A stretch of 26,838 bases of DNA from Zancudomyces culisetae (taxonomy: Eukaryota; Kickxellomycota; Harpellomycetes; Harpellales; Legeriomycetaceae): positions 1 to 26,838 of the forward strand of contig LSSK01001248.1 in the NCBI GenBank assembly GCA_001969505.1. The letters run 5' to 3'. Positions within the stretch are counted from its first letter, which is position 1; each line of letters starts with the position of its first letter. A model generated the notes under the pieces. It was not told the DNA's origin. It was given only the letters and a program-made list of their open reading frames with translations, and made no database searches. Below are positions 3,755-26,838 of this stretch, piece by piece. A program made the position numbers and the translations under genes.

Positions 3755-3775
3755 ATGCAAATAAAGAGTTAGTAG

Positions 3776-4074
3776 AAGGTTCAGGCTGGTAGCTAGCATT
3801 TTGGGTGTGCTCACAGTTCCAACTTGATAGATACCATTTTGCTAAACTGTTGACCATGATGCCTTAGAGTAATTAGTAGGCTTAGGATAGTGAACATGAT
3901 TAATGGCTATAGAGTTAGTTAGTGTTGGTGTTGGTGTTGGTGTCACAGCTAATTTGATGAGATGACAAAAAATAGGTGAATCAATATTAGTTGAGAGTTG
4001 AGTGGATGTTATAGTGTTTATTTGACTTGCTAATATCAGAATTGGTCTGATTTTTATTTTAGTTGTTGTTTTAA
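3776..4074 (-). repeat. Dispersed repeat, copy A (299 bp)
   Basis: This is the reverse complement of 18826-19148. By eye the two copies differ by 12 substitutions and by the number of internal hexamers (here three CAACAC units, there seven). No other indel is needed: 299 + 24 = 323. No terminal inverted repeats, clear target-site duplications or open reading frame were found. Orientation is given relative to copy B as plus. Confidence 0.9.
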
Positions 4075-4287
4075 CCAGTTTATGAAAAGAAGGGTGAAAA
4101 TACCATTGAAACTCATTTGTTGCATATTCAAACTTATTACTAGGTAGGGATTCGTAAATGAGCTATTGAAATTTATTTACATCAAAACATCATTTGCTTA
4201 AAAAACGATTTACACAACTACTAAAGCTATTCTACGTTTTTTTGGCTCTTCTTCGAGACTTACGATTAATCGAAAGGCATAGTAAAG

Positions 4288-14859: not shown

Positions 14860-17800
14860 ATGAGTATGGTTAGGTACCAGGTTGTCTACACGTCACAGAA
14901 GTACAAAAAGCAGGGTGTGATTTGGAAAGATGGTAAGTAGTCTTTACTGTAATCTCTTAATTAAAACAGATTTATTAAATTTTTGGCAACTGTACGCAAT
15001 TATAGGAATAGTGGAATTGGTTGACGACAAAACGGTAGAGTTTTTATACGGTTGCGATATAATTTCTATTAACTTTTCAAGAATGGTCGAATCAAAAGTA
15101 CTAAATCAAATATTGTAAAAATAGATTATACTGAAGGATCTGGAAAAGACAGTATTGACCAAGTAATAAAAAATTTCATGCTAAATTGACAATAAAAATG
15201 TAAAACATACTATAAACTGCGTGCGAACCTAATAGGTACATGAAGAAGAAAACAGACGTGGTTCAAATAGATGAAACGCTTGATGTGGGAAAATATTTGG
15301 TAGTGTTCAATGAAATAGAAGATGGGGATATAGCTAAAGGAGATATTACTACAACTTCAAAAGCAGAGAAGAGTGATAATAATGCTGCAGGCAGCAGCAT
15401 CAAAGGAAGGTACCTGATGAGCAATATGAATAGCGGTGGTATAACTTCAAAAGTAATTGCAAAACGCAAAATGGGGATTCAAAAGAGCCAGAATTCGACT
15501 TTTATTTCACCGTTTAAAGTAAGTCTTATTATTGGTATTGATACAAGTGAAGTATTTATTTATACTTTTTTAAAAGAAAAATCCTGGTTATGATGGAAAA
15601 CATGGCTTAAATATACGATAATGGCATAAAGCGGGTAAGAGTGAGTTGAGCATCTTTAAACCTGAGTGAATGTACAATAGAAAATGAAGGTGCAAAAGAA
15701 AGAGGAGCCTGACACACAAAAACAGAGTGGCGATGTGGTTACAAAAACACCGAGTGTTAACAACAAGGTCACGATTAATGGTGTAAGGTAAATAATATAG
15801 ATATTGTGAATAAAGTAAGCGATATTCAAGATAACAAAATTTATGAATGGAAATGTCTTTACTGTAGGACAAAAGTGAATAGAATAAGTTTTCCAAATAA
15901 ACGAGAAATCGAGATGGAATACTACAAGAAGAGGGGTAGTGGGGGAGTAAGGCTGAGGTTAGATTATGTAAGTATCGATTTGTAAATGGCAGAGTAGGAT
16001 GTATTGATTAACCAAGGGGTCAAAAATAATAAATAAATGGGTGGATGAATGCATTAAATAGGAGAACTGGGGAGACTATTGTAGAACAATTAAGGGAATG
16101 CTGCGAGAGTTTATACAAGATACAATAGCAGAGACAGCAAAGATGTTTTATGAGACCAAAAAAAAGTATATCAATCAAAAGATGATGGCTAGTAAATTGA
16201 AGACCCAAAAGATAGAGTATTATGAAGGAATCGGTTTGGTTAGGGGGATGAACGGATACCGAATATCGGGAGTTACTGGTAATAATGGTAATGGCGGTGC
16301 AAACAGAAATTTTTACAAATATGGACAAAAGGGAGCAAAAAAGAAAAGTGAAGAATATCAAAAAAACGATACATGGATCATTTCACAAACGGTAGATTTC
16401 CACAACGGAATAGTATGCAAAAGTGAATATTATGGAGTAAACAGTGATGGTACAATAATGATAGATGGGGTAGATGAAGATAATAAGGACAAGCTAAAAA
16501 AGATATTCGGAGCTGGCTTGGAAAAAAATCAGAGACAGATGTTACAGAAAAAGGATAGAGAATTGGAGAGGGAGATAGAAATGTATTGTTTACGGATGGT
16601 GGAAAGTGTGAATGAATGGAGTATTTTGGAAATGTTGGACGAAGTAGAAAAAGACAGTGAGAACGACATTTATTTGAGAAAAGTTTTGATAGGGAAGGCA
16701 GATAAGGAAGGAACAAAGGAAATAATGGCAGAGACTGAGGATGAAGTGAGAAACGGGATACAAAAAAGGGCAAAAGAACTGATTGGACAACAACAGCAAC
16801 TGTATAAGTTGAATCAAGAGCAGTTGCAAGTGGTCACGCGGGTAATAGACAATATAATCAAGCTGTATACAAACAGTTCTAGAGATGAAGCTGAGATCGA
16901 AGAAAACGAGAGCAAAAATAAGAACGAGGATAAGAATAAGAATAAAAACGGATGCAGACGAGAGGGAGAAGGACAGGCAATAGTAGTCCATGGACCATTT
17001 GGAACAGGCAAGTCACTGGTGACTGCAGTCATAGTTGTGGTATCAGCAGCGCTAAAGCAAGAGTTTGTAGAAATATTTGGGAAGCATCCGACATATGGTG
17101 GACTGAGGATGCTGGTGACGTCGATGTCTAACTGTGCCGTTGATAATGTTTTGCAAAAAATAGTAGAACTTGGGTTTGACGATCTAGCACGAGTGGGTAG
17201 CCGGCCGCGCGTTAGTAGCAGTATCCGCACCTATTTGATGGCAGCTAGCAATGCAGATATCAACAACAAGTTTTTAGTAGGTGCAACTACAATTATGTGC
17301 ATGAACATGGGCAATGACGCCAAGTATCCCGTTGTGTTGGTAGATGAGGCTAGTCAAATTACAGAGCATCTGTTGGCAGTGCCGGTGTTGAAATTCAATC
17401 CACCTGTGCTGGTAATGGTTGGCGATCATAAACAGCTGCCTCCTACAATGGCCAGCATTGTCACCAACCGGTACTATGCAGAGTCTGGGATTCCATTTAT
17501 CTACACACTCTTTGAACGGCTTATAAAATTACAGCATGAGCCAATTATCAGGTTGCGCTTGCAGTATCGCTGCCATCCAAAGATTGCAGAGATTGTCAAT
17601 ACGTTATTTTATAACAAACAGCTGATAAATGGGGTTTCAGAGGCTGAAAGACCTGCTCTAATTACCAGCCTACCACCAATCTGTTTTTTCAACGTTGTTT
17701 CTCCAACTTCCTCAACCGCTTCAGCCCCAAATCCAACCAAAAATACTACTAGCTGTATGAACAAAAGTGAGCTTCTATTGACTTTAAAGCTCCTGAAATC

Positions 17801-18674
17801 TATACATACTAATTTTAGTCGGCAATCCAAAACCCATTCAATCGGGATAATTAGTTTTTATAAAGACCAAGTCAAACTGCTTTCAAAACATCTACCATCA
17901 TTTCCTCATCTCTTCCGGCACGTGAACTCAGCTCCGAATAACGGCGTTGATAATGATGATGAAAATGATGATGTGGCTGAAGATTCTGTAATCACCACAA
18001 GTACAGTGGATGCATTTCAGGGTAGCGAGAAGGATATTATTCTCTTTAACTGCGTCAAATCTCTGCCAGCACCAACAACTATTACCACACGAGGACAAGG
18101 CTCATCTCATCCTCCTAAACTTCGAATAAATACGTTTTTAAACAACCCAAACCGCATAAATGTAGCACTATCTCGATCAAAATCACACTGTATTATATTG
18201 GGCAACGAGTCATTCCTCCTCGCCTGTTGTCCACTTTGGAAATCCATTATTGATTATTGTAAGTTACATGGGTGGTATGTTGATACCTCCTTGGGTGCTA
18301 CCAACGATACTGCAGATAATAATATCCACCGGTTTGCAATGTCAAAACTATATGCCAACATCAATGGCGATGGTAATCACAACTATTTTTCAAACAACAT
18401 GACCAGCGATCCGCCTAGTTCTGGCGCTGATATTAATGATAATGAACCTGATAATGAACCTGATAATACCGATACATTGCTCTCTTGCGATCTAGCTAAT
18501 GACGACGATTTTTACAATCAAGAACACGATGTACCCTCTACTGGTCAAGCCAATAACCATGTTGACTCAACCAGTAGTAGCAACCACACTGTTATTGATG
18601 AATATTCTGGTCATGAACGCTTGTTTTTGGATATAGAAAACGAAATGGATTTAAACATCGATTCGATAATATAG
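14860..18674 (+). CDS. ZGRF1: ZGRF1-like protein: N-terminal DUF2439 plus UPF1-type superfamily 1 helicase
   Basis: Six exons: 14860-14932, 15006-15114, 15236-15518, 15681-15787, 15868-15967 and 16062-18674, giving 1094 residues; all phases fit and all acceptors are TAG. Residues 1 to about 85 form a DUF2439 domain (MVRYQVVYTSQKYKKQGVIW at the start; DVGKYLVVFNEIE near its end). This is the module shared by human ZGRF1 and yeast Mte1/Dbl2. An SPFK motif ends the third exon, as in that family. The helicase core has Walker A GPFGTGKS (about 535), VDEAS (about 651), GDHKQLPP (about 678), QYRCHP (about 725), VDAFQGSEKD (about 873) and NRINVALSRS (about 921). The tail is acidic and Asn-rich, with a tandem EPDN repeat. 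ZGRF1 and Mte1 act in homologous recombination and crosslink repair. I find no GRF zinc finger. In the helicase alone it could be confused with IGHMBP2/SEN1 relatives; the N-terminus decides. Confidence 0.88.
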
Positions 18675-19510
18675 CACTACTTTGGTAGCTTTTTTAATTT
18701 ATTTTTACTTTTTTTTATTGTAGTTTTTTCGGCTTTGTTTTCAAGCTTGGTGTTTCGTCAATCTACAGGATCGGTTCCCAATATATTCTCATCCTTTTTC
18801 TTTCTTTTTTTTTTCCACAATATGATTAAAACAACAACAAAAATAAAAACCAGACCAATTCTGATATTAGCAAGTCAAATAAACACTATAACATCCACTC
18901 AACTCTCAACTAATATTGATTCACCTATTTTTTGTCACCTCATCAAATTAGCCCAGACACCAACACCAACACCAACACCAACACCAACACCAACACCAAC
19001 ACTAACTAACTCTATAGCCATTGATCATGTCCACTATCCTAAGCCTACTAATTACTCTAAAACATCATGATCAACAGTTTAGCAAAATGGTATCTATCAA
19101 GTTGGAACTGTGAGCACACCCAAAATGCTAGCTACTAGCCTGAACCTTGTACTGGTTAACACTAGATAAATTCTGTTAAACCTAGAAAATCGAGCTAACT
19201 AAACAATTCGAACAACTCACTTTAGTTGCTAGTAACTCATAATTAGGTGCAAAAAACTCAACCACGGTGGTATATTTGTTGGCTGGTTAACTGTTTATCC
19301 TTCTCAACCAACTACACCTTTGTTCTACTTATCATGTAGTCTCCTATAGTTTGTTTAGGTTTCAACTATAGCACATTTGATAAAAGTATACCATGTTCCT
19401 CTTTCAGTGCATTTTGGTGAACATACCACAAGACGCTAGACATATTTTTAACGCAATTTTTTATTAATAAAACGTAAATAAAATACTGAAATGCAATAAT
19501 AATAAACCTG
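18675..19510. other. Convergent intergenic region with dispersed repeat
   Basis: Between the 3' ends of the ZGRF1-like gene (+) and ARP3 (-). Its centre is copy B of the dispersed repeat. 19149-19510 shows no gene. A plus-strand frame at 18735-19070 runs through the repeat and its Thr-Pro stretch is just the hexamer array, so I do not call it. Confidence 0.7.
18826..19148 (+). repeat. Dispersed repeat, copy B (323 bp)
   Basis: Reverse-complement match to 3776-4074. It starts TTAAAACAACAAC and ends AGGCTAGTAGCCTGAACCTT-like sequence (exact edge GAACCTT at 19148); beyond both ends the copies diverge at once. An internal array of seven CAACAC units lies at 18961-19002, against three in copy A. 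No coding capacity. Could be a short non-autonomous retroposon or MITE-like element; no family recognised. Confidence 0.9.
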
Positions 19511-20900
19511 TTAGCCGAGACTGGTAAACACTTTATTATATCTACATATACTTGGCCCATACTCTTCATAATCAGCCTTGCTATGTGCAACCTGGTAGAA
19601 CTGCTGATCTGTGCTGCCCAAAATACTTCCTCCAAACCATACTGCATGTCTCTGCTTCTTGTGGCTAATCACGTTTACTGCGACTGGGTTTGCTGTGATT
19701 GTAAATGCACCACTATCTCCACCCCCAGTCTGTTGCTGTAGTGGGTTTTTGAGTCGCGCAGCCATCAGTTGCGCCTGGTTGCTGCTCTGGCGGTCGTCAA
19801 CAATTTTGCGCAAATCACGCTGTAGTCGCTTACCAAGGTTGCTGAACATTGTTGACCCACCACTTAGCACAATGTTGGAGTACAAGCCACGGCGAGTATC
19901 TATGGGTGCTGATTGGATTGCTTGGTCAATCAGGGTTGGTAGTGGGGTAAGGTAATCTGTGCTAATTATTTCGGGGTTGAAAAAGACTTCGGGACCCAAA
20001 AACCGCTCGTATCCAACATCTATGGTTCCACGGTTGTCCTTCAGCATGTGTCGGATAATGTTTTTGCTTGGTTCTAAATCGTACTTCTCGAATTCCTTCA
20101 CAATATCATGACATGTGTACCCATACTGCTCCTTGATGGTCTTGGCTGTCTCCATCATTTGTTCTGGTGGAATTGGTTCGTTGCGATCTCTCAGCTGCTG
20201 CATCACAAAACTTGTGATATCCCGTCCGGCAATCGGCATGCTCTTCAAACTTCCCCCCAAAACATATCCTTCTGCTACTGGAATAATATGTGTTACTCCA
20301 TCTCCACTGTCGACAACCAGTCCGGTCAGACTTTGATTACTATTTTTGCTCGTCCAGCTAGCTACCAACGCAAGTACAGCCTGTACTGCTATATAAAGCC
20401 CATTCACATTGAAACTCTCAAAAAATATTTCGGCCATCTGCTCCCGATTCTCTGGTGCATTCAGTGGTGGTTCAGTGAGTACAAAATAATGGTTTTCCGG
20501 CTCACAGCGCATGTATTTAAATATACTAGTCTCCCAAATCCGCTCCATATGGTCCCAGTTTTCAATCTGCCCTTGTCGCATAGGATACGAAACTCCATAC
20601 ATTTGACCATTAGCAAATGCCTCATCCCCTATATAAAAATCCAAGTCCTCTACTCCTCTCTTTGAAGCTATTCCATATCGACTTGTTTGCTTGACATTCT
20701 TGTTTGGGAGGCCGATAACTGAGGGTATTACAAATTGCGGATCGGTGTTTCCCGCAAATCCCATTTTTGTATACCTATTCAACAGTCGTTTATCAGTTAT
20801 TTGCTTTTTTTTTATTGCTAAAGATTATATCAACATGATGCATCTATAGACTCTCTTACCCTGTTCCATTATCTATAACTACTGGTGGTAATCTTGACAT
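19511..20900 (-). CDS. ARP3: Actin-related protein 3 (Arp2/3 complex)
   Basis: Two exons on the minus strand: 20900-20860 and 20774-19511, giving 434 residues. The intron (20859-20775, GTAAGA...ATAG) splits the Gly codon of the conserved phosphate-binding loop: VVIDNGTG joins [14 protein letters not shown]. Family blocks include [38 protein letters not shown], the second nucleotide-binding strand with [11 protein letters not shown], and the C-terminal [19 protein letters not shown], which separates Arp3 from actin and Arp2. Arp3 pairs with Arp2 to nucleate branched actin filaments, as in endocytic patches. Length matches the family (about 418-450). A polar, Gly-rich loop ([11 protein letters not shown]) lies near residue 355, in the region where fungal Arp3 proteins carry inserts. 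It is divergent from the thioesterase gene. Confidence 0.97.
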
Positions 20901-22605
<1,705 letters not shown>

Positions 22606-22681
22606 GAGCATTAGTATCCTGTAATCACATAGCGCTTTTATAACATGTATTGTTTTATTGACAGCCTCGTCACTCTCACAC

Positions 22682-22715
22682 AATAATAATGATAATAATA
22701 ACAATAATAATAATA
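22682..22715. repeat. (AAT)n-rich microsatellite
   Basis: Imperfect AAT/GAT/AAC trinucleotides between the convergent 3' ends of the thioesterase and IST1 genes. Confidence 0.8.
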
Positions 22716-22768
22716 GTTGGGTGTTTTTCATGTTCTAGCCAAAACATGTACATCTATCTGAACTAGCA

Positions 22769-24129
22769 TCAGTTTCTTTTTAGCGCTTCTAATCTCTTCA
22801 TCAATTCATCCATTGTCGGCACCTGGTTGGCGCTTCCAGCGGAATCTGACACCTTTTTTTCGTCTCCAGTTTGTGCCTTGTTACTGCTATGACTACTATT
22901 ATCGGCTCTATCTCTAGTACTGGATTCTTTATCCACACTGTTATCATTCTCATTTTTTCTGACTTTCTGTTGTGGTACATTTACTTTGCTGTGTCTGGCT
23001 TCGACTTCCTTTTCCCGTTCTTTTTCCTCTTCCTAAAAATATGCATACTTATTTTGTTGTTACTATATCAACAACACCTGTGCATCATGATAAATTTCTT
23101 AGATGCACCTTGGTACGTTACCTTTGCTTCGGATTCCTTTGCTCCTCCGCCATTTCCATCATCATCCTCACTCGATTCGTCCTCCGGTTCCTCATCTGAT
23201 GGTACCCATTTTATTCCATAGCTACGACTTATTTCTCGTAAATATTCTTTGATCAGCAACGGATCAAATTCGCAGATATTGAGTTTGGCTACAAGCTAAT
23301 ATTTTTTTTATCACTTGTTAATTAATTCAATACGAGCACTGTGTGACCACAGCATTCGCTGTTTACTGTTTATTGCTCAACTCTACTACAAAATTTTCTA
23401 GGTTACCTGTTCGTTTGCCTTAAGATTCGTATTGTCTAGACTATGCCCTACAAACTCTCGTCCATATAGACTTGTAAATATGTCTTTAATCTAGAGTATC
23501 AATGTTAAGCTGTTAGCAGTGTTTCTTTTTTTTGGGGTGGATTACTCATGTGTCCAGGAAACGCTGAAAAGTATGATTTAAATTCTTTGTAGATTCATTC
23601 TTAATAGTGTTTAACGGATCCTTTAAAAAATGGGCATACGTTCTCACTGGTATTTAAAAAACATAAAAAACAATACTTACCGTAGCAAATTCCTTGACAT
23701 TTACCCTCCCTGAAGAATATATTATACTACAAATGACCTCCATTGTCGAATCGTCTAGCTGTTTGCTTTGATCAATAAGTATCAATCTATTTTGCAGCCT
23801 TCTGCAGTATTGTTCCAAAAGCTCAAGGGCCTCAATTATATAGTCCTCTTGGATTATCTTTTCGACCTATTCGCGAATTATTTTAGGATTCTCACATTGT
23901 ATACCGAATTTTTCTTATTTAAAGGTTACCATCACAAAGATAAAATAATGCTTTAAGCTGGAAATATCCCTACTCTTATCTTTGCCACCATTGTTTCGTC
24001 TTGCTCTAGCAATCTCGATATTTCTTTTCTTTCTGCTTTTCCTATTGCCTTTTTCTTTTCTCTCAGCAATTTCAATCTATTGGTCGCCAGACCTAGATTA
24101 ATTTTCAATTTCTCTACTATCTTCTGCAT
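22769..24129 (-). CDS. IST1: IST1-like ESCRT-III regulator
   Basis: Five exons on the minus strand: 24129-23974, 23866-23681, 23490-23407, 23295-23122 and 23032-22769, giving 287 residues. All introns are phase 0 and end in TAG. The N-terminal helical domain begins MQKIVEKLKINLGLATNRLK and continues with ERKEISRLLEQ, AKIRVEKIIQEDYIIEALEL and LLEQYC, the classic Ist1 signature. It closes with EYLREISRSYGI. An acidic and Gly-rich linker follows, then a charged Glu/Lys region. The last residues, DELMKRLEALKRN, fit the MIM1 consensus that binds the MIT domain of Vps4. Ist1 tunes Vps4 and ESCRT-III in endosomal sorting and cytokinesis. ATG 24129 is chosen because frames further upstream have no ATG and extend past the family N-terminus. 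Length matches yeast Ist1 (298). Confidence 0.93.
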
Positions 24130-24521
24130 GTTTCTTCGGTCTAAACCCTCTTTATAACAAAATGTTACTATTCCAAATCGTTCAATATAAGAGTATGTAA
24201 ACAACAAAAGATACAACACATGAGACAAATTGTGTTTCAGTTTAGTGAAATATGCAACTCTGAAACTCTGCCCACCAATCGCGAAACGGCTGAGCTAATA
24301 AATGCCAACCAAAAATACTGACATTTTTATTGGACCTTTCGGGCTAGCGAATAAAATACAAAAGAAATAGTCGCAAAGCTTGAATCACGTATTTTACAAG
24401 CTTTATATTTGCTTATGATCAAAAGCGTGCCTTAGACGCAATATAGATTTTGTTTCAAAACTGCGCTCTTCTGCATAGGTTACTTTCGAAGATTTTACAG
24501 CTATTAAGATATATTAGAGTT
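24130..24521. promoter_or_regulatory. Divergent promoter region, IST1 / SECISBP2-like
   Basis: About 390 bp between two outward-facing start codons. It must hold both promoters. No specific element can be assigned. The frame of the SECISBP2-like gene stays open to about 24450 but without ATG. Confidence 0.5.
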
Positions 24522-26127
24522 ATGCAGTATAATCAAGCTACAAATCGAAGCTCGAAGGCATCTGGTAGCACCGGAACTGGCGTCAAGACCAAAAAAAAGA
24601 CCAAGCCGAAACCACAATCAGGATTCAATCTATCTCAAGTTATCGAAGAAGCACTAGAAAAGGTTGGAAGTGATCGGCAAACCAAAATCACAGAAGTTTG
24701 GGTAAAGCCGTCCGGAAAATACGTTTGTAAAACAGACTCTTGTTTCACCAGAAATGAAAGGGAGGGTGATCAACGAGTAGACCTGAATAAAGCTTCCAAT
24801 ATTAAACCCATCACGAGACATAGAACAAGACAGCATGTGTTGATAGATAGCCCGAATTCCAGAAACAAGGTAATACTAAAAAGTCACAGTCAAGAAACAT
24901 CCAAGAAGAAAAGACAGATAAAAATATCCGTTACTAAAAGAAAAATACGCAAAAAAACACTCCTGCCCGATAAAAAGGACAGGCTTTTACTACAAGGAAA
25001 GACAAAAGTAGATAAAAACGAGGTAAAATACGGAGAGAATAATATTTTGGATAAAACTGCACCTAGCAAGCTATATAGAGGCATACAAAGGCGATTGCCA
25101 AAGACAACGAAAATTTCAAAGTTAAAAAAAAAGTATCTTGTTCAAAAACATATCATTCATGAGATAAAGCATGGCAATGGTCAGGTAGACGCGAATATTA
25201 GCACGAACAATGTGGAAGAGGCAGATAGGGCTACAGAGGTACCTCAACATCAATCTTGCAAAAATAGTACTTTGGGGGTCCAAGATATTAATGGTAAAGT
25301 AGGCACAAAAGACGAGTACAAGATGAGAAAGGATATGCGAAAGGCAAAGATTGAAAAGTTTAAGGATTCGCTAAAAGAAAGTACAGAGGTGCTAAAAATG
25401 AAAAGCCAGGTTCAAGAATTGATAAAATTTGCTGCTGATGAAAAGCATGATGGCAGAAAGCATTTCAAAAACGGTATAAAAGTCTGCAAACAAATTCAAA
25501 AGATAAAAAGCCAAGCTATGTTTACTAATGAGGCAGAAATCCAAAGGTATCTATTGTATTTTTTTTAATATTTCATTAACATGCTACAAATACAATCTTA
25601 ATGCAAATGGGTATCTTAACAATAGCTATGTCACGCAGCTAATAACGCCTGAGCTCCAACAGATAGTCTTAGGCATAATAGAAAAGCTGACCACGTACCA
25701 GAGCAGAAATAGCAAGAATCGGGGTAGTGGGTATAAACAAAGGTACTATACCGGATTAAGGGAGGTATGCAGAAAGGTCAAGCTGAGCGAGAAGGGTCTA
25801 GCTCCTACAAATTATAGCAAAAAGATACACAGCGTGATTGTTAGTGTTAATATCCAACCAACTGATTATGCTAAAAGAGAGTTCCCTGCAGACCCGACCT
25901 CTTTATTAGAGAAATGCAAAGCCCAAAATGTTCCAGTAATTTATTCCCATACGCGGAAGCAGCTTGCACGGATAGTCTCTTCCTGTTCGGAAAAGAAAAT
26001 CAAGTCGATATCCTGCCTTGGTCTATCTTTTATTGATGGTGTGAATGAGGAGCATGCAAAAATGGTAGCCATGTCCAGTGAGCTAAGTGCAGAGTGGGTG
26101 CGCCAGTTCAACAGCCTATGTGAATAA
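24522..26127 (+). CDS. SECISBP2: SECIS-binding protein 2-like (C-terminal L7Ae RNA-binding domain)
   Basis: Two exons, 24522-25546 and 25626-26127 (intron GTATCT...ATAG, phase 2), giving 508 residues. The first 300 or so residues are Lys/Arg-rich and apparently disordered, with little recognisable. From about 285 the sequence becomes helical (EYKMRKDMRKAKIEKFKDSL). Exon 2 reads SYVTQLITPELQQIVLGIIE, then RYYTGLREVCRKVKL (about 381-395), which resembles RRLVLGLREVLKHLKL of animal SBP2. NVPVIYSHTRKQLARIV (L7Ae core) and a C-terminal helix follow. SBP2 binds the SECIS hairpin in selenoprotein mRNA 3' UTRs and recruits eEFSec with tRNA-Sec. The chief alternatives are other L7Ae proteins (RPP38, NHP2), but the GLREV block preceding the core favours SBP2. 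The start is the first in-frame ATG. Confidence 0.8.
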
Positions 26128-26838
26128 TTGGCGTCATTGGTACTATTCTAGCTTATTTTCTTTTTCCAAGTGACTACCATCACACAAAAAAAATGTATTA
26201 TTAATTGTCTGAACCCGGTGCCATAAACAGAGTGGTCGTACTACTGTAACGTGTAGTGGATATATTTTAAATCAATACTTGATGATGTTTAGAGATGGTA
26301 TAATTTCTTGAGTTTTATTTAAAAAAAAATCACATTTCTAAATACTTGAGGATTATCAAATACCCAATCTGTAATCCTTTGTTAAAAGAAAAAAGCACCA
26401 ATATACCATTAATTTTCTCTGACCCTACTTCATCTTTGTTTCACACTGCGATTTTTGCACTATTTTGTCTCTTGTGTGTGCTACGCAGATACCAACATAG
26501 AGCAGACCAACTGAACCCTTTTCCTGCCATGTCTCCTATTTTGGACACAACATCATATCTTTATTTTACATTTGACCCAAAATAGCTATTAACTCTTATT
26601 AATTATTGAGCTTTCACTGATGAATAAACTCCTCAATAGACAATCAGTTCTTTAGAAATGTTATTGAAAAACTATTGTGAAACAACAGTTTGGTGGTGCA
26701 ATTGATAAGAATACTGATGTATACTGCTAGTACACGGTGTGGAGTGTATGTATAGATTTAGTATACCCTTTTCAGGGTTCAGTGACAAAGATATCAATAT
26801 ATGTTTTCTTGTTAGATTCGGTTTTGCCTATTGTGGTT
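26128..26838. other. 3' flank with no recognised gene
   Basis: About 710 bp after the SECISBP2-like stop. AT-rich. A plus-strand frame at 26346-26585 lacks recognisable protein character. Nothing else seen; it may contain the 3' UTR and the flank of a neighbouring gene. Confidence 0.5.

Follow-up and report, generated by a model that had tools for sequence, protein, structure and literature searches.

A predicted, diverged SBP2 gene in the selenocysteine-using fungus Zancudomyces culisetae

The locus considered here raises the question of whether a fungus carries a gene for the SECIS-binding protein 2 (SBP2) and, if so, of what the protein would do there. The window, by which we mean the whole stretch of DNA analysed (26,838 nucleotides), comes from Zancudomyces culisetae (Harpellales), a fungus inhabiting the guts of insect larvae. 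In 2019 Mariotti et al. reportedly described selenocysteine (Sec) in nine early-branching fungi. That Z. culisetae uses Sec has itself already been published (PMC12611240, with reference to Mariotti et al., 2019), the organism being placed there among the Sec-utilizing early-branching fungi of the 2019 study; seven of the nine Sec-using fungi are Harpellales according to PMC10386755, and Sec-utilizing early-branching fungi are also treated in PMC11378755. The two Sec users outside the Harpellales are reportedly Gonapodya and Bifiguratus. The main text of PMC12611240 contains no occurrence of SBP2, and within the literature searched we found no description of a fungal SBP2, which protein Mariotti et al. 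(2019) or a supplement possibly lists. What appears to be new here is the SBP2 gene; it is ordinary in kind, a diverged SBP2 from a fungus whose use of Sec was known before.

The predicted gene and its likeness to SBP2

The open reading frame begins with the ATG at 24522 and ends with the stop codon at 26125–26127, the same limits as those given in an earlier note on this DNA, which had proposed an SBP2 homologue there. A first frame is open from 24522 to 25568, and a second frame continues to the stop at 26127. Near the frame break six GT/AG pairs preserve one open frame; from among these we took the GT at 25547 and the AG at 25625, which predicted splice gives the 508 residues of the earlier note along with a collinear SBP2 alignment. 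The resulting predicted intron, of 79 bases, is close in length to the introns that we inferred for SPS2 in the same genome (76–128 bases). The features, all on the plus strand, are as follows:

24522..25546, + strand: exon 1 of the SBP2 gene, residues 1–341 plus two bases of codon 342, containing a basic N-terminal region and the Sec-incorporation domain (SID); open reading frame from the ATG to GTATCT at 25547, predicted as the 5' splice site
25038..25148, + strand: SID-like block, approximately residues 173–209, NNILDKTAPSKLYRGIQRRLPKTTKISKLKKKYLVQK, matching SBP2 NPLDSSAP...REIPKAKKPTSLKKIILKER by local alignment
25547..25625, + strand: predicted intron of 79 bases, GTATCT...CTTAACAATAG, one of the six frame-keeping splice choices
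25626..26127, + strand: exon 2, L7Ae-type RNA-binding domain through the stop codon, from phmmer against the PDB, the reciprocal search with human SBP2, and shuffles
25753..25767, + strand: GLREV block of the L7Ae core, identical in the SBP2 chain 7zjw_B
25786..25818, + strand: SEKGLAPTNYS, 11 residues inserted after the GLREV helix and ahead of the hydrophobic strand, with no counterpart in 7zjw_B SBP2 (alignment gap)
25933..25971, + strand: PVIYSHTRKQLAR, counterpart of SBP2 PFVFALNRKALGR by alignment, with the Asn and the Gly substituted

The gene adjoins, in divergent orientation, a gene of at least two exons for the ESCRT regulator Ist1 (window 23657–24294, minus strand).

When exon 2 was compared with the PDB by phmmer (177,635 distinct sequences), the best match was the SBP2 chain 7zjw_B, which we take to be rabbit SBP2 (E = 0.0025; collinear, 2–151 with 632–766); the remaining four matches up to E = 10 were ORC1 sequences, so that SBP2 was the sole L7Ae-family chain recovered. 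In a local alignment of the RNA-binding domain with 7zjw_B the score was 118 against a shuffle mean of 29.3 (s.d. 5.1; z = 17.5), and that of the N-terminal part with the SID region of the same chain was 86 against a mean of 40.2 (s.d. 6.1; z = 7.5), neither score being reached by any of 500 shuffles; for the ungapped 20-residue SID block, RRLPKTTKISKLKKKYLVQK with REIPKAKKPTSLKKIILKER, 28 of 10,000 shuffles attained the score. In the reciprocal direction, the RNA-binding domain of human SBP2, searched against the 23.1-Mb assembly, gave two matches at E ≤ 10: the window gene (E = 4.2e-5), whose protein has 28% identity over that domain, and C475:18973-19428 (E = 3.0e-5), a second copy treated below.

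The evidence from Pfam was weak. The Pfam L7Ae model, PF01248, scored the 508-residue protein at 16.1 bits versus a cut-off of 22.1 (residues 406–464); the two exon frames searched separately against Pfam gave no family at E ≤ 0.001; and a scan of the complete assembly with PF01248 brought up six further sites but not the window SBP2 gene. The full-length 508-residue protein matched no PDB sequence at E ≤ 10, and the AlphaFold model of exon 2 alone was unusable (pLDDT 36.8). Two word-based searches of a collection of 5.8 billion proteins for SBP2 relatives of about 280–890 residues, yielding 321 and 7,730 word-sharing candidates, returned none at E ≤ 10; the absence of relatives among those candidates indicates that the gene appears to be unannotated within that range of lengths.

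The layout of the protein follows that of 7zjw_B: the SID block comes first and is succeeded by the L7Ae domain, with its preceding YCSQ stretch and GLREV, and the alignment is collinear across the whole domain; the GLREV block and L7Ae core that had been read in the C-terminal half are present. The fungal protein departs from 7zjw_B in the 11-residue core insertion, in having KYLVQ in place of IILKE and SHTRKQLAR in place of ALNRKALGR, and in its length of 508 versus 854 residues. Several of these features have parallels in the comparison of SBP2 proteins in PMC2746813, here cited from its accessible text. There, a conserved Gly is placed 15 residues before a hydrophobic cluster in the SBP2 L7Ae core; both the Gly (of GLREV) and the cluster (VIV) are present in the window protein, whose insertion lengthens the interval, the literal 15-residue spacing thereby being lost. 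The RNA-binding regions of the accepted SBP2s from Monosiga, Emiliania, and Toxoplasma are likewise reported to have been aligned with nonconserved stretches and large gaps (PMC2746813). As in Drosophila SBP2, where the corresponding sequence is SVRVY, the IILKE is not kept; and the window protein is without the vertebrate N-terminal extension, as is described for most protostome SBP2s (PMC2746813). The QLDL motif was not found in the window protein (the score of the best ungapped block being reached by 1,956 of 10,000 shuffles); that motif is, however, characterized in the same source as sporadic outside the deuterostomes and as missing from accepted SBP2s that include those of Drosophila and Dictyostelium, which argues that QLDL is not family-defining.

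The core fold is common to all members of the L7Ae family, and, in view of the Pfam score below the cut-off, we considered whether the window protein might be another member—NHP2, Snu13, eL30, eL8, eS12, or RPP38—merely resembling SBP2. The six PF01248 places in the assembly, named by reading of the letters, correspond to Snu13, eS12, eL30, NHP2, and eL8 (two exons), so that five of those proteins appear to have genes of their own; SBP2 was the only L7Ae-family match of exon 2 among PDB chains at E ≤ 10; and upstream of the RNA-binding domain lies the SID block, which is not known to be part of any of those six families. In a nine-row tree the window protein pairs with 7zjw_B SBP2 (85/93), apart from NHP2, Snu13, eS12, and eL8. 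The nearest outgroup of that pair is eL30, with a support of just 36/0, and the same neighbour appears in the accessible text of PMC2746813. Since the window protein has a long row and, of the six inner branches, five are open and not one is starred, we take the tree as support and not as proof; the grouping with SBP2 instead of NHP2 implied by the earlier reading was recovered, RPP38 having been left out of the rows. We accordingly regard membership of another L7Ae family as very improbable.

The proposal of an SBP2 homologue at this position is thus upheld by SID-like and L7Ae-type blocks in the SBP2 order, by SBP2 as the best PDB match, and by the pairing in the tree. We assign a probability of roughly 85% to the reading that window positions 24522–26127 constitute a two-exon gene for a predicted 508-residue SBP2 of Z. 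culisetae, which, at the UGA codons of selenoprotein mRNAs, likely serves to recruit eEFSec and Sec-tRNA.

Selenocysteine machinery and selenoprotein genes

The earlier note had taken such a gene to imply a selenoprotein system, either working or recently lost. In the same assembly we found a tRNA-Sec, an eEFSec, and genes for SPS2 and SelenoH with an in-frame TGA, which findings support a live system, more weakly with respect to SECIS and SecS. The tRNA-Sec (C630:8925-9012; anticodon TCA) scored 57.9 bits versus a cut-off of 47 and was also called by ARAGORN as SeC (tca); among the ten places listed for tRNA-Sec, it alone lay above the cut-off. Domain III of eEFSec (C393:3779-4123) matched PF21208 with 76.2 bits versus a cut-off of 27, and upstream of that domain GTPase exons could be read, one of which had its best match with selB (43.7 bits versus a cut-off of 242). 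For PSTK we have a weak candidate below the curated cut-offs, namely a frame of 440 residues on C242, for which TIGR03575 was the best NCBIfam match (E = 1.2e-8; 34.6 bits versus a cut-off of 382) and which matched nothing in the PDB up to E = 1. An exon-by-exon search of the draft assembly for SecS (SepSecS) gave no match with PF05889, with TIGR03531, or with human SepSecS.

The two selenoprotein genes are the following:

C807:14952-16397: SPS2, five exons, the first codons unsettled; TGA at 15018–15020 in SGLKG[TGA]GCK, the known Sec site
C228:18982-18163: SelenoH; TGA at 18493–18491 in EHCTR[TGA]RVF, followed by an intron and then by GPPRKLKFPE

In SPS2, the 358 codons contain no stop beyond the Sec TGA except the terminal one; the protein matched selenide, water dikinase 1, presumably human SPS1, with 340 bits, and TIGR00476 with 247 bits versus a cut-off of 125. 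Ten bases separate the Sec TGA of this gene from the predicted 5' splice site of exon 1 that follows it, so that in the mRNA the codon would be found beside the junction of exons 1 and 2. The SelenoH gene was missed by the Rdx family model in a genome-wide search, and its family scores fell under the cut-offs (TIGR02174, 19.8 versus 34.2 bits; PF10262, 15.2 versus 22.6 bits). It was found instead with the pattern EHCxxUxx(F/Y), which had a single match in the genome, compared with three for the reversed-pattern control; the identification consequently rests on the surrounding SelenoH sequence, the residues around EHCTR[TGA]RVF and GPPRKLKFPE resembling those of human SelenoH. Ahead of the Sec domain, SelenoH has a long Lys/Pro-rich N-terminal region of approximately 150 residues.

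That we did not find SecS agrees with the account of the draft given in the accessible text of PMC12611240, according to which the COL-18-3 draft has all the essential Sec genes plus SelenoH, with the exception of SecS, whereas for strain HAW-14-8 the HiFi assembly does contain SecS and the Sec machinery is expressed. The failure of three queries to find SecS in the draft could also mean that the SBP2 gene is a relic in a lineage that has recently lost Sec decoding; the presence of SecS in the HiFi assembly and the reported expression speak against that interpretation, as do an intact tRNA-Sec and the retention of TGA at the Sec site of both SPS2 and SelenoH, with frames intact on either side, and we give the relic scant credence.

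In PMC7988114 and PMC8559351, the lack of U in annotated proteins of fungi is taken as an argument that these organisms are without Sec. Against that claim stand the genes for SPS2 and SelenoH found here: with UGA at two canonical Sec sites, and with a likely recoding factor, all read from the DNA of a single fungus, the missing U is likely explained by annotation that terminates at UGA.

The recoding signal and the proposed function

A genome-wide search with RF00031 placed none of the 133 candidates scored above the cut-off of 35; two matches, on C362 and C856, had 18.4 bits (E = 9.25). The match on C362, lying antisense to a frame read as glutamate synthase, was dismissed as a chance occurrence. 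The searches around the two selenoprotein genes were all made without a positive control: RF00031 gave no match up to E = 10 near SPS2 or SelenoH; a first custom SECIS scan, of the SPS2 3' flank only, returned four foldings, none convincing; a stricter custom scan found none in either flank; and the loosest scan found one hairpin in the SelenoH flank and none in that of SPS2, at least one such hairpin occurring in 7 of 252 background chunks. Mariotti et al. (2019) reportedly state in their abstract that consensus SECIS elements are missing from most fungal selenoproteins.

The SelenoH hairpin lies on C228 some 340 bases past the stop codon; its stem has 9 bp, with UGA and GA at the top, and an AAAA run lies inside the hairpin. 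It is a possible noncanonical recoding element, which we hold only as a lead because of the 7 background chunks that also have one and because the SPS2 flank has none. The sequence similarity between the 3' flanks of SPS2 and SelenoH did not exceed chance (the score being reached by 69 and by 60 of 200 shuffles), and their structure z-scores, down to −3.0 and −2.6 among 54 windows each, were unremarkable.

By analogy with SBP2 in animals, one would expect the RNA-binding domain to bind both an element in the selenoprotein mRNA and the ribosome, and the SID to promote Sec insertion by assisting eEFSec in the delivery of Sec-tRNA at the UGA. The RNA element read by the fungal protein has probably changed and become lineage-specific, because no canonical SECIS was seen near SPS2 or SelenoH and because the protein is changed in the regions responsible for SECIS recognition. 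Drosophila SBP2 reportedly binds SECIS elements of Form 2 alone, and the exchange of its SVRVY for IILKE is reported to confer binding to those of Form 1 (PMC2746813); for the fungal protein, by contrast, no canonical SECIS has been seen. As a tentative extension, to which we attach less than even odds, the Harpellales may have re-engineered the SBP2–SECIS handshake, keeping the fold and the SID while the insertion, the SHTRKQLAR loop, and the KYLVQ co-evolved with a noncanonical element that replaced the SECIS and for which the SelenoH hairpin would be the first candidate.

The altered SECIS-reading loop, the insertion in the core, and the lack of a canonical SECIS near SPS2 or SelenoH would also suit a descendant of SBP2 that now has another role, whether ribosomal or regulatory like vertebrate SBP2L, with fungal UGA recoding left to a different RNA-binding factor. 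A precedent exists in SBP2L, which has two conserved blocks in common with the window protein and which, according to the accessible text of PMC2746813, binds SECIS weakly and does not support Sec insertion in vitro; the same text restricts SBP2L to deuterostomes plus one mollusc and one annelid, assigns it extra motifs of its own, and reports it as missing from organisms without selenoproteins, among which fungi are named. We nevertheless judge this change of role unlikely, since no SBP2-like gene other than the window gene and its own second copy turned up in the genome, the SID block has been retained along with the RNA-binding domain, and tRNA-Sec, eEFSec, and UGA-containing genes are all present. 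Under the preferred reading, of an SBP2 acting in Sec insertion, the diverged protein makes fungal UGA recoding testable, and its gene can serve as bait in the search for the RNA signal that stands in for a canonical SECIS in fungi.

The second copy and the origin of the contig

The assembly searched comprised 23.1 Mb in 859 contigs, which may be those above some length limit: for Z. culisetae, the accessible part of PMC5954228 gives 28.70 Mb along with the figures 1,954 and 35.52, the latter two taken as scaffolds and GC percentage. The GC content of the window is 36.3%. The copy of the gene on C475 is 99.6% identical to that of the window over 2,715 bases, with three synonymous and two nonsynonymous codon differences and an intact frame in both. 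Where the window overlaps with 20 kb of C475 (window 16629–26838 and C475:10001-20187), the identity is 99.1% over 10.2 kb, on account of which we infer that the C475 copy is the other allele or a redundant contig, and not a paralogue. Near-identical contigs of this kind, likely alleles, have been kept in the assembly, so that gene counts can be doubled.

Along 57% of its length, a carnitine acetyltransferase encoded in the window has 100% identity with a partial protein of Z. culisetae, and it has 53–60% identity with five proteins from other Harpellales (among the 120 matches listed), in keeping with the fungal appearance of the genome noted earlier. The fungal reading of the neighbouring genes held in part: Sgf11 and a stretch of Erg26-type 3Beta_HSD scored above their Pfam cut-offs, an Mpo1-like match fell just below (23.6 versus 24), and Bud23 went unconfirmed in the single frame tried. 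For a gut symbiont, host DNA in the assembly is conceivable, and the contig could in principle be contamination from the insect or from another organism; with that carnitine acetyltransferase in the same window, closest to Z. culisetae and then to other Harpellales, and with a second near-identical contig also bearing the SBP2 gene, we consider such an origin the least probable of all the alternatives, to be entertained hardly at all.

An inverted, dispersed repeat of approximately 340 bases was also observed in the window, at 3771–4100 and, through its C475 counterpart, at about 18790–19130, the C475 copy being 91% identical to the first of the window sites.
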